Source: Saccoglossus kowalevskii (taxonomy: Eukaryota; Hemichordata; Enteropneusta; Harrimaniidae). Taken from it: a DNA stretch of 21,112 nt. The DNA is taken from the NCBI RefSeq assembly GCF_000003605.2, contig NW_003143815.1:168997-190108 (forward strand), in the 5' to 3' direction. A program made the translations under genes and the position numbers. Shown piece after piece: positions 9,180-21,112 of this stretch (position 1 is its first letter; every line of letters begins with the position of its first letter). Under the pieces are notes generated by a model. It searched no databases and had not been told where the DNA came from. It was given only the letters and a program-made list of their open reading frames with translations.

Positions 9180-9469
9180 TTGTTTATTGCTTAACCAGGC
9201 ATTTTGAATTATTTATTTGACGAACATTGTGTTTGTACCGATGTACACAAATGTCAACTGGACCATGATTATTAAATATGTTCTGTGTGTCTTTCAATTT
9301 CCGAAATATAGTACGCCAACGTCGACTTAACGTCCATTATCGGATATTAATGACACCGTCACTTTCTAAACACAAAGTATCCCCCAAAATAGAGTGAAAA
9401 TGCATACATATTTTTTCAATCGAAAGATGGTAGCATTAACACACAAGTCTAGTGTTCGGAAGGGATGAA
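9180..9469 (-). other. Probable 3' UTR of the RRM-like exon with two AATAAA signals
   Basis: Downstream of the TGA on the - strand there is no continuing ORF. AATAAA occurs at 9217-9212 and again at 9188-9183, giving a UTR of about 260-290 nt. This supports the end of a transcript rather than the middle of a LINE, where ORF2 would follow. Confidence 0.4.
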
Positions 9470-10021
9470 TCACGTGCTCGTAACCAGCATACCATTCCTG
9501 AAGACAATTTCGCCATCTTTGCCTATAGCCCGGATCAATGTTCTCATGTTCTCCATAGTGATACGAGCATCGTGTGAAGTATATGGTTCAATCTTTACAT
9601 CATGGAATGACGCCGATTTCCCGAGATTTTGTCGAGCATTTAAAACCGCAGCTTGGTCCTCTACTGTTTCTAGTACAACGATAAGTGAAGGGTCTTCACT
9701 TGGAGACATTCGTCGATGAGCTTTGTCCACTTTGGCACTGACACCGAGTCCCTCTCTGAATAATTCATATACTTTTTGAAAGGTGTGTTCATGTGGAACT
9801 GCTGGGAGATTTCGAATCACAATACCGCGTTCAATGGCTTCTGCTTCTAACTTTGTTTTCGCTTCGAAATGGTCCAATTTCTCCTCTAAAGCCTTAAGCT
9901 TGTCCTTAATGATAGCGATTTCTGACGTCAGATTTAGGTTCAACTCTGTCAACTTCTCATGTACTCCATCCATTATATGCTGATGCAATGTTCGAAATTC
10001 GTAAGGCGACCATGCGGCTTC
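9470..10021 (-). CDS. Coiled-coil plus LINE-1 ORF1p-like RRM domain, apparently a terminal exon
   Basis: An open frame of 183 codons runs from a splice acceptor (TTTATTCCTAATAG, ending at 10022) to TGA at 9472-9470. Residues about 25-70 form a heptad-like helix (IIKDKLKALEEKLDHFEAK). An RRM-like segment follows from RGIVIRNLP through LIVVLETVEDQAAVLN, then a conserved helix-rich end (DARITMENMRTLIRAIG). This order is that of LINE-1 ORF1 proteins, which trimerise and bind RNA. No reverse transcriptase follows downstream, so this is not part of a complete element here. The stop just upstream of GAAGCC is itself the acceptor, and the frame is phase 0, matching the exon at 10570-10470. It is visibly more GC-rich than its flanks. 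The first ATG inside the exon is at 9973-9971, so a solo ORF1 remnant is the alternative. Confidence 0.7.
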   Translation of the reverse strand, partial: EAAWSPYEFRTLHQHIMDGVHEKLTELNLNLTSEIAIIKDKLKALEEKLDHFEAKTKLEAEAIERGIVIRNLPAVPHEHTFQKVYELFREGLGVSAKVDKAHRRMSPSEDPSLIVVLETVEDQAAVLNARQNLGKSASFHDVKIEPYTSHDARITMENMRTLIRAIGKDGEIVFRNGMLVTST

Positions 10022-10080
10022 CTATTAGGAATAAATACAAAAACGCTCAAAACAACATGGCCACACCAACATTCAGCGCC

Positions 10081-10197
10081 ACTACCCTACACTACACTAT
10101 ACTACACTACACAACACAACACTACACTACACTACGCTACACTACACTACACTACACTACACTACACTACACTACACTACACTACACTACACTATAC
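10081..10197 (+). repeat. CTACA pentanucleotide microsatellite
   Basis: There are about 20 units of CTACA (TGTAG on the - strand), pure from about 10134 to 10193 and interrupted at the left by CTATA, CAACA and CTACG variants. It falls in the short intron (10469-10022) upstream of the RRM-like exon. The two + strand ORFs crossing it are repeat artefacts. Confidence 0.95.
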
Positions 10198-10469
10198 ACC
10201 CACTCACACACTAATAACAATGCAATCAAAATCTAGACCGTCCGTATTATGCGGACAACGTAACAACATTAAATTTCATAGGTCTCTCCAGAACTGCGCA
10301 CACAACAATGTAGTATTTGCCGACTGTTATGAATACTTCTATGACTGTATTATAGTTCACATAAATATGCCTTTTGCCACGAATAATCACTATATCGCTC
10401 ATTATCTATGGAAACTAACTAGGTTAAACGCATTCACCAATACTACAAAAATAACAATGCTTTACTTAC

Positions 10470-10570
10470 ATTAACGTTGTGTTTCAGAGTTGAGAATTTG
10501 TTACTTTGATGAAATAAACCCAGTGCCTCTACGTATGGTTCATGTTTAGTCGCAGCTAAAATAGTCATTC
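10470..10570 (-). CDS. Internal exon of the - strand single-pass membrane protein gene
   Basis: The acceptor is CTTTTGGTTTACAG and the donor is AAT/GTAAGTAA. Of three frames only one is open. It takes two bases to finish a Gly codon and then gives 33 residues (MTILAATKHEPYVEALGLFH then QSNKFSTLKHNVN), ending in phase 0. It directly follows the membrane segment of the preceding exon. No known domain is recognised. Confidence 0.6.
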
Positions 10571-10792
10571 CTGTAAACCAAAAGTTGACATAAGACTTGT
10601 TTATATGGCGTTATCTTCCTTTATTTATGTTTTCATTTTTGTGCGTTTATTAAACTGTTTGTCTCTGCAATAATGAATACGCTGGCAATAGCACCGAGTC
10701 TCAAAGCAACGCGTCGTATAATGGCGTGTTGTTGCTGTCATTGCTACATAATAGTGGTGGACATAGGTGACATACATTAATCAAAGACTTAC

Positions 10793-10910
10793 CTTTGTAA
10801 TTGTAAACTTTAATCATAATCAGTGTAAGTAATATACAGGATACAAAAAATCCAACAAATAAGTTTCTTTTCATATGCATGTCTGATCTAGTGACGCTGT
10901 TTATAAATAA
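10793..10910 (-). CDS. Exon encoding the membrane anchor
   Basis: The acceptor is GTGTTTAATTACAG and the donor is AAAG/GTAAGTC. The frame is open from the first base (phase 0) and contains ATG codons at 10880 and 10874. After a basic stretch (RSDMHMKRN) comes a hydrophobic run of about 20 residues (LFVGFFVSCILLTLIMI), then KVYNYK. It is either a signal anchor, if translation starts at one of these ATGs, or an internal transmembrane helix, if the exon at 11863-11739 is joined in. Charges on the two sides are nearly balanced, so topology is undecided. Confidence 0.65.
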
Positions 10911-11251
10911 CTGTAATTAAACACGTGAAATATGTGGTAATAGTGAAACACGATGATTATAACACTGCAAAACAATCATAGTACTTTGGGTATGGTGAAG
11001 TAACCATGGTCGTATTAATTCTGTTGTTATTATTATATTTTTATTATACTTCTAAAGATTAACAACTGTAATAAACATATAAACATTTTTACGTCGAATT
11101 GGGTCAAGTGAAGACAATTCAATTTCGAGACTGCTCTTAATGTTAATTAACTGTGATTCAGGTATTCTATCTTTACTAAGCATGAATCACTTGACGGCAA
11201 ATTTTGCTATTGTGCCACTATTCTGCAAAAGACTGTAAACCCGCGACTTAC

Positions 11252-11278
11252 CTGGAATTGTACAAAACGTTTGTAGAA
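11252..11278 (-). promoter_or_regulatory. Possible alternative first exon with TATA box at 11304-11298
   Basis: On the - strand a perfect donor (TTCCAG/GTAAGT) ends at 11252, and a GTATAAAGG box lies at 11305-11297, placing initiation near 11275. A leader of about 25 nt would join the acceptor before 10910 and leave the ATG at 10880 as the first start. No open frame of suitable phase lets the segment act as a coding exon between 11739 and 10910, which is why a leader is preferred. Confidence 0.35.
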
Positions 11279-11738
11279 CTCTAGGTTATACAGTTTCCTT
11301 TATACGCATTTATGTTTTAAATACAACCAAGTACCTACATACATTCTACTGATAGTTCACTGACTTCAGTTTTGTGTCTATAAAAAGTCGAAATAGTTCT
11401 GGATAGATTCGAAAAAATGTATAAATAATTTTCCTTGTGTTGTGAAAAATAATGAAGATATATATTGGTTAACTACAGCGATTCAATGAAACAGTGAGGC
11501 ATCAAACATGTTCAATTTAAGCGTACGAGCAAACTTATGACAGAAAATAATATTAATTTGAGGGAATATTGATGTGTTCTACACAATAATGGTTGTTATA
11601 AGTTTATGTAAGCGGTGCAAGTCAATCATGCAAATGAACGTGTAAGCCTTGATGCAAATTGGTAGTGTGTATGATGAATGATGTTTACAAATTTAATGTT
11701 TTGATGATGTGATGACATACGAGCCGTGCAATACATAC

Positions 11739-11863
11739 ATTTTCCGTTAATGATATAGATGGGCCCTTTTCGGTAGGCGACTTTTGCATGTTAGCTTCCT
11801 CGTCAAAATCTGTATCCGCCGAGCAAGACGACTGACTGTGCGTGCGGCTTACGACTGTCAGAG
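11739..11863 (-). CDS. Upstream exon of the membrane protein gene, acidic/Ser-rich segment
   Basis: A strong acceptor (TTTTTTATCCCATTTTAG) and donor (GAAAAT/GTATGT) bound 125 nt. The open frame takes two leading bases and then gives 41 residues including SSCSADTDFDEEANMQKSPT, ending in phase 0. The next exon (10910) opens in phase 0, so the two are compatible. The same frame is open upstream to an ATG at 11921, whose first residues (MLKFIVTIKVTINLFYPILA) resemble a signal peptide. A start there would make a type I protein instead of a spliced internal exon. Confidence 0.55.
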
Positions 11864-11921
11864 CTAAAATGGGATAAAAAAGGTTTATTGTGACCTTGAT
11901 TGTCACTATAAATTTCAGCAT

Positions 11922-14907: not shown

Positions 14908-15031
14908 GTGAGTCAATTGTGATTCAGCGCGTTTCACACACCCCATGTGATCATGGATGTTTGTTTGGTCATGTAATTTACATATTCAATAAAGCGAAAC
15001 AGCTGGTTGGTATGGTAATCTCAGTATTATG

Positions 15032-15123
15032 TTATATTATATTATATTATATTATATTATATTATATTATATTATATTATATTATATTATATTATATTAT
15101 ATTATATTATATTATATTATATT
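15032..15123 (+). repeat. TTATA pentanucleotide microsatellite
   Basis: About 18 perfect copies of TTATA, without interruption. The two overlapping ORFs are artefacts of the repeat, which encodes YYIIL in all frames. Confidence 0.95.
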
Positions 15124-20709: not shown

Positions 20710-21112
20710 TTAAGCCAACCAATTATTTAAGAGCTCCCATTTACGATAGTGATATTGTTCCTTTCCTTTATATAGGGCTATTTCCAACTCTATTTTTCTA
20801 TTTTCACGGACTAGTGATTTAAACGCAATTGCAGAAGGGATTGTAGCATTTCTTCTACAGCTATAAATATACTTTTTGAACAGTAAAATAAAATGGTTCA
20901 AAATTAGATTGTCATCATTTAAAATGCCTAAAATTATATTTACTTTATTACACTCTATTTGTTGAATTTCCCTTGGAATAGCATCTATTATGCCCTGAAT
21001 TTGGAAAAATTCTACTTGAGAAATACCTTTAGTATTCCAAAAACCCCAATTGTAAAAGTTTCCATTGGTGTCAATTAAATCCCCAATCCGATTACTATTT
21101 TTGTTTGCCAAT
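20710..21112 (-). mobile_element. C-terminal part of an L1/Tx1-like LINE ORF2, running off the right edge
   Basis: A frame with no stop runs from the window edge to TAA at 20712-20710. The reported initial Met is really a TTG Leu codon, so the start is outside. The segment NRIGDLIDTNGNF...FFQIQGIIDAIPREI is characteristic of the region after the reverse transcriptase core in L1/Tx1-type LINEs. It is followed by LLFKKYIYSCRRNATIPSA and a charged helical end. ORF2 supplies endonuclease and reverse transcriptase for retrotransposition. The 133 visible codons are intact, suggesting a young copy. The element's 3' UTR should extend left, perhaps to about 20340. Confidence 0.8.

Follow-up and report, generated by a model that had tools for sequence, protein, structure and literature searches.

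A putative single-pass membrane protein gene of Saccoglossus kowalevskii with a last exon likely derived from LINE ORF1

The window, i.e., the whole stretch of 21,112 nucleotides analyzed here, appears to carry on its minus strand a single-copy predicted gene of the host type, to which we give an even chance. Its product would combine a transmembrane helix and a linker with an ORF1-derived coiled coil and RRM-CTD, the last two forming a membrane-held, oligomeric head for protein interactions. The features to which the text refers are as follows (window coordinates).

11739..11863, minus strand: putative exon 1, a hydrophilic N-terminal segment with an AG acceptor, a GT donor and an open frame; ATG at 11789
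10793..10910, minus strand: putative exon 2, a single predicted transmembrane segment (LFVGFFVSCILLTLIMIKV); its donor ranks 3rd of 1340 GTs
10470..10570, minus strand: putative exon 3, a linker, with splice sites and frame as its basis
10080..10194, no strand: CACTA microsatellite of 23 copies in the last intron, outside the coding gene, with many relatives across the genome
9470..10021, minus strand: last exon, ending with the stop codon TGA; coiled coil (helix 6-63), RRM-like part (about 65-147) and C-terminal domain (about 150-183)
9183..9217, minus strand: two AATAAA polyadenylation-type signals, with first bases at 9217 and 9188

Gene model and coding signal

Inspection of the minus strand bears out the arrangement proposed by the original prediction, with four putative exons flanked by AG and GT, a single open frame shared across three introns with GT-AG borders, and a TGA end at 9470. 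The two AATAAA signals expected downstream are present at 9217 and 9188, and a membrane anchor does lie in frame with the last exon: the segment in exon 2 reaches a 19-residue hydropathy of 2.54 and constitutes a strong single transmembrane candidate. In a simple matrix scan the donors of exons 1, 2 and 3 rank 76, 3 and 25 among 1340 GTs, while the acceptors of exons 1-4 rank 18, 113, 43 and 161 among 960 AGs; the splice matrices, used for these ranks and for both exon-chain tests below, are approximate. Because of its rank (161 of 960), the acceptor of the last exon, described earlier as strong, is graded only as fair. The frame of this exon begins directly after the TAG of the acceptor, in the phase of exon 3, as had been claimed, but an in-frame ATG is located at its residue 17. 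At the other end of the gene the start is uncertain: the frame of exon 1 is open as far as 11987 and contains ATGs at 11921 and 11789, corresponding to predicted proteins of 317 and 273 residues, respectively. A start at 11921 would add a hydrophobic stretch to the protein.

An open run of at least 183 codons is present in 4 of 200 simulated windows, so that length alone provides a modest argument, not a decisive one. A chance open frame was rejected for the last exon on codon-position measures, as neither its codon-position chi nor its G1-G2 difference was reached by any of 1000 stop-free simulations; its RNY share is unremarkable (reached by 138 of 1000). The exon looks truly coding. For exons 1-3 taken together, the same three measures were reached by 293, 36 and 248 of 1000 simulations, respectively. 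Owing to this weak codon signal, the coding status of these exons rests on their splice sites and frame, and they are the weakest part of the gene model.

The chain of exons was also compared with chance. At the model's own thresholds the upstream DNA allows six exon chains, the best of which is that of the gene model. Its summed score was reached in none of 100 Markov simulations, run at thresholds that equal the model's own weakest sites and are hence biased toward the model. With looser thresholds, 49 of the 754 real control acceptors in the window and its flanks have a chain that is just as good; 12 of these 49 use exons of this very gene, and without them the count is 37 of 742 acceptors located elsewhere.

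Other parts of the window contain open runs as well. A 98-codon run on the plus strand (261-554) has a strong codon-position signal (chi 27.3) and no Pfam match at 0.1; it resembles the final pair of membrane helices in a seven-transmembrane receptor. Two open runs overlapping on opposite strands (1512-1871 on the plus strand and 1544-1939 on the minus strand) display raised codon-position signals (chi 20.4 and 26.0, respectively), and the former gives a weak DUF4718 match below the cut-off (E 0.02). A TATTA pentanucleotide microsatellite of about 20 copies occupies positions 15025-15123.

Relationship of the last exon to LINE ORF1

Searched alone, the last exon retrieves no PF02994 with hmmscan up to E 1 (the best match, DUF7367 at E 0.099, is below the cut-off). 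Nor does a PDB search extended to E 10 bring up a LINE-1 ORF1p. PF02994 is a weak test in this genome. Among seven local ORF1s scanned (seven of the set of nine defined below), only L020 lists the family, below the cut-off, and the other six list none; the ORF1-like frame L013 passes the cut-off. Loci L019-L038 represent a diverse L1-type ORF1 family in the genome. A genome search with PF02994 yields only two places, one of them above the cut-off, and none of the seven scanned family members passes. Pfam-based counts of L1-type ORF1s are thus too low here, given that a single query (L013) detects 78 places at E 1.

The exon was also compared with the genome's own ORF1s. The larger profile was built from 12 of the 20 loci, leaving out the query itself (L019) and seven loci with open stretches under 160 aa. 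It assigns 10.3 bits to the whole exon, 7.1 bits to the RRM-CTD and -1.5 to the reversed RRM-CTD. The value for the RRM-CTD was reached by 1 of 5000 shuffles, of which 4277 were reported by the program and the remainder counted as below. The coiled coil alone receives 6.9 bits, nearly equal to the RRM-CTD score, as is usual for coiled coils owing to their composition. A set of nine ORF1s was obtained by removing L022, L024 and L030 (truncated, or entering an N stretch) from the 12. Against these nine, hhalign aligns residues 75-180 of the whole exon with a probability of 61.6, P 7.8e-5 and 24% identity, running in register through AHR and on to the VFRNG motif at the C-terminal end. For the RRM-CTD alone P is 5.4e-4, and the score of 29.6 compares with a maximum of 24.9 among 200 shuffles. 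The exon is 17-23% identical to the nine sequences, and its pairwise comparison with L013 is not significant (z 0.8 to 2.0).

The nine-ORF1 profile itself matches LINE-1 ORF1p structures at 1.6e-11, and it matches influenza haemagglutinin chains in the coiled-coil part only (both among the 60 of 75 matches listed). The ORF1p matches of a two-sequence profile (A1, the exon plus L013; 1.2e-7) were discounted, as L013 alone gives 7e-7.

In a single-sequence AF2 model of the whole exon (mean pLDDT 61.4), a helix spans residues 6-63 and is confident until about residue 50. Beyond that point, the model predicts with low confidence a b-a-b-b-a-b arrangement followed by a helix and a hairpin; the RRM-CTD part modeled alone has a mean pLDDT of 66.2. 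Judged by secondary-structure order only, with which the profile alignment agrees, the predicted elements would follow, at low confidence, the order of a type II ORF1, namely coiled coil, RRM and CTD. The longer local ORF1s contain a stretch ahead of their coiled coil that the last exon lacks. Descent of the exon from an L1-type ORF1 is likely, not proven, and the profile tests agree with its original designation as LINE-1 ORF1p-like.

The RRM-CTD differs from its presumed relatives in charge. Its net charge is -1 in the last exon versus +8 to +14 in all nine local LINE ORF1s, one of which (L036) ends in a broken tail. With the net positive charge gone, the description of this part as a nucleic-acid-binding domain is not supported.

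Copy number, surroundings and alternative explanations

The genome searched comprises 572,110,611 bases, and the search scores only candidates from a loose first pass, for which reason a lack of matches is no proof of absence. At the DNA level, neither the last exon with its 3' flank nor the exon 1-3 region has a match in the genome besides itself. At the protein level, the last exon finds only itself, as does a 122-residue piece of it at E 10, and the spliced exon 2-3 peptide finds its own exons only. In a positive control, L013 detects 78 places in the genome at E 1, itself included, and 41 at E 0.001 or better, with identities down to 22%. The 114 DNA matches obtained in the first genome search were misleading, as all except the window itself sit at the CACTA microsatellite. 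Searched by tblastn against the window and its flanks, the predicted protein returns its own exons and two chance-level matches (E 4.0 and 1.7), and a scan of viral contigs with the last exon returns no relative.

According to the original prediction, an ordinary LINE remnant would be recognized by numerous almost identical copies of 9470-10021, each followed by ORF2; the genome search yields the exon itself only, so that this check did not refute the prediction. The 4.5 kb downstream contains, on the gene strand, two open runs of at least 70 aa (96 and 81 aa), neither of which matches Pfam at E 0.01, in line with the earlier statement that no ORF2 follows the last exon. An ordinary LINE copy was rejected, with neither further copies nor ORF2 found, and with the exon and its partner exons matched nowhere else in the 572 Mb by this search. 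For comparison, the DNA downstream of all nine local ORF1s was examined, and for eight of them the longest open run there was scanned against Pfam (L028 was omitted due to Ns). Three of the eight match endonuclease or reverse transcriptase, one of these below its curated cut-off; among the five with no match, some have downstream runs that look like ORF2 by eye. The last exon is followed by no A-run of 7 and is flanked by no exact direct repeat of 10-20 bases. A neutral relic too diverged to be recognized by its DNA would be expected to have an interrupted frame. Under a neutral model with 0.2 substitutions per site, the frame of the exon would remain free of stops with a probability of 0.006, a value that drops much further once indels are included at an assumed rate of 0.1 per substitution. 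At K of 0.2 or more, it is thus improbable that the frame survived neutrally.

Pieces of a LINE-like element occur upstream of the gene on the minus strand (window 20710-21111 and L017 1-3550). They run from an ORF1-like, coiled-coil-looking start in L017 through an N stretch to an open frame that resembles the C-terminal portion of a LINE ORF2 and has no Pfam match.

The last exon could be real, selected and ORF1-derived, and the upstream partners nevertheless wrong, in which case the membrane anchor would be a chance one or a soluble ORF1-like protein would start at residue 17. This appears rather unlikely. The ATG at that residue is compatible with it, but the predicted coiled-coil helix starts ahead of that ATG, at residue 6, and the frame starts exactly at the acceptor in the phase of exon 3. 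The weak codon signal of exons 1-3, for which no relatives were found, and the finding that 37 of 742 control acceptors elsewhere have chains of equal quality also speak for wrong partners, whereas none of the 100 Markov simulations yields such a chain. It is unlikely that the exon is an ordinary relic of some extinct or low-copy LINE lineage, in which a piece of ORF1 has been kept open by chance or by a recent insertion. The genome does contain many places that resemble LINE ORF1 (one query retrieves 78 at E 1), and the LINE-like pieces upstream lie on the same strand; however, the exon has neither a DNA relative nor a protein relative (E 10), and its frame is unlikely to have survived neutrally. 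Moreover, no ORF2 was found behind it, compared with Pfam-recognized ORF2 parts behind three of eight local ORF1s, the exact 10-20 base flanking repeat and the A-run of 7 are absent, and the exon lacks the part that the longer local ORF1s carry in front of their coiled coil.

An origin outside LINEs, from another coiled coil and RRM-like fold of a host or virus that merely resembles ORF1p, is very unlikely. It would agree with the failure of the exon alone to reach a Pfam cut-off or an ORF1p in the PDB, with the weak pairwise score and the low-confidence models, and with the absent net positive charge. Against it stands the in-register profile match across the RRM and CTD, including the shared AHR and VFRNG motifs, which was equaled by only 1 of 5000 shuffles in one comparison and by none of 200 in the other.

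Predicted architecture and known ORF1-derived genes

In the preferred explanation, that of a single-copy host-type gene, the gene would have acquired its 3' terminal exon in the distant past by capture of the ORF1 module of an L1-type LINE, and selection would have retained it since. The predicted protein would begin with a short N-terminal segment, followed by one transmembrane helix, the linker, and finally the coiled coil with the RRM-CTD. By analogy with L1 ORF1p, the coiled coil may trimerize. The head would then act as a membrane-held oligomeric module for protein contacts and no longer as an RNA packager. Hydropathy, and the flanking charges as judged by eye, give no decisive preference for either membrane side of the head, and a start at 11921 would change the topology. 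A bolder reading is possible but doubtful: a LINE ORF1p may have come to serve a single-pass membrane protein as its oligomeric head, keeping the scaffold, shedding the basic RNA-binding charge and handling no nucleic acid, perhaps with the head facing the cell exterior.

The closest precedent is L1TD1 of placental mammals, which is described as almost entirely LINE-1-derived, with two ORF1-homologous regions (PMC4161310). L1TD1 is a host gene with spliced coding exons from LINE-1 ORF1 (coiled coil, RRM and CTD), a feature that the predicted gene would share. In contrast to L1TD1, the gene described here would have one highly diverged copy behind a predicted membrane anchor, and its RRM-CTD has no net positive charge; the word 'transmembrane' occurs 0 times in the text of the L1TD1 paper (PMC4161310).

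Among mobile elements, the nearest counterpart is the type II ORF1 of L1-like LINEs, so classified in PMC4120745 and represented by the family PF02994 and the structure PDB 2yko. The last exon is similar to type II ORF1 in the order of coiled coil, single RRM and CTD and in its profile match to the genome's own members. It differs in that neither ORF2 nor a second copy was found, and by its shorter pre-RRM part, its start at a splice acceptor and its RRM-CTD charge of -1. The EKA effector family of powdery mildew, derived from a truncated LINE ORF1, likewise reuses LINE ORF1 as a gene product (PMC4641428). EKA originates from an I-superfamily ORF1, has thousands of genomic copies and has lost the C-terminal half with the NB domain (PMC4641428), whereas here the RRM-CTD is retained and a second copy was not found.

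In a non-exhaustive search of the literature, no invertebrate or membrane-bound ORF1 gene of such a kind was found, and its absence from print is not claimed. Similar ORF1-like proteins may be frequent in the predicted proteomes of molluscs. Retroviruses are behind many known retroelement exaptations. The gene of S. kowalevskii, if the proposed reading is true, would represent a second route, in which a gene takes up the ORF1 fold as a 3' exon, ties it to the membrane and strips it of its charge; the ORF1 scaffold would thereby prove reusable beyond RNA packaging.
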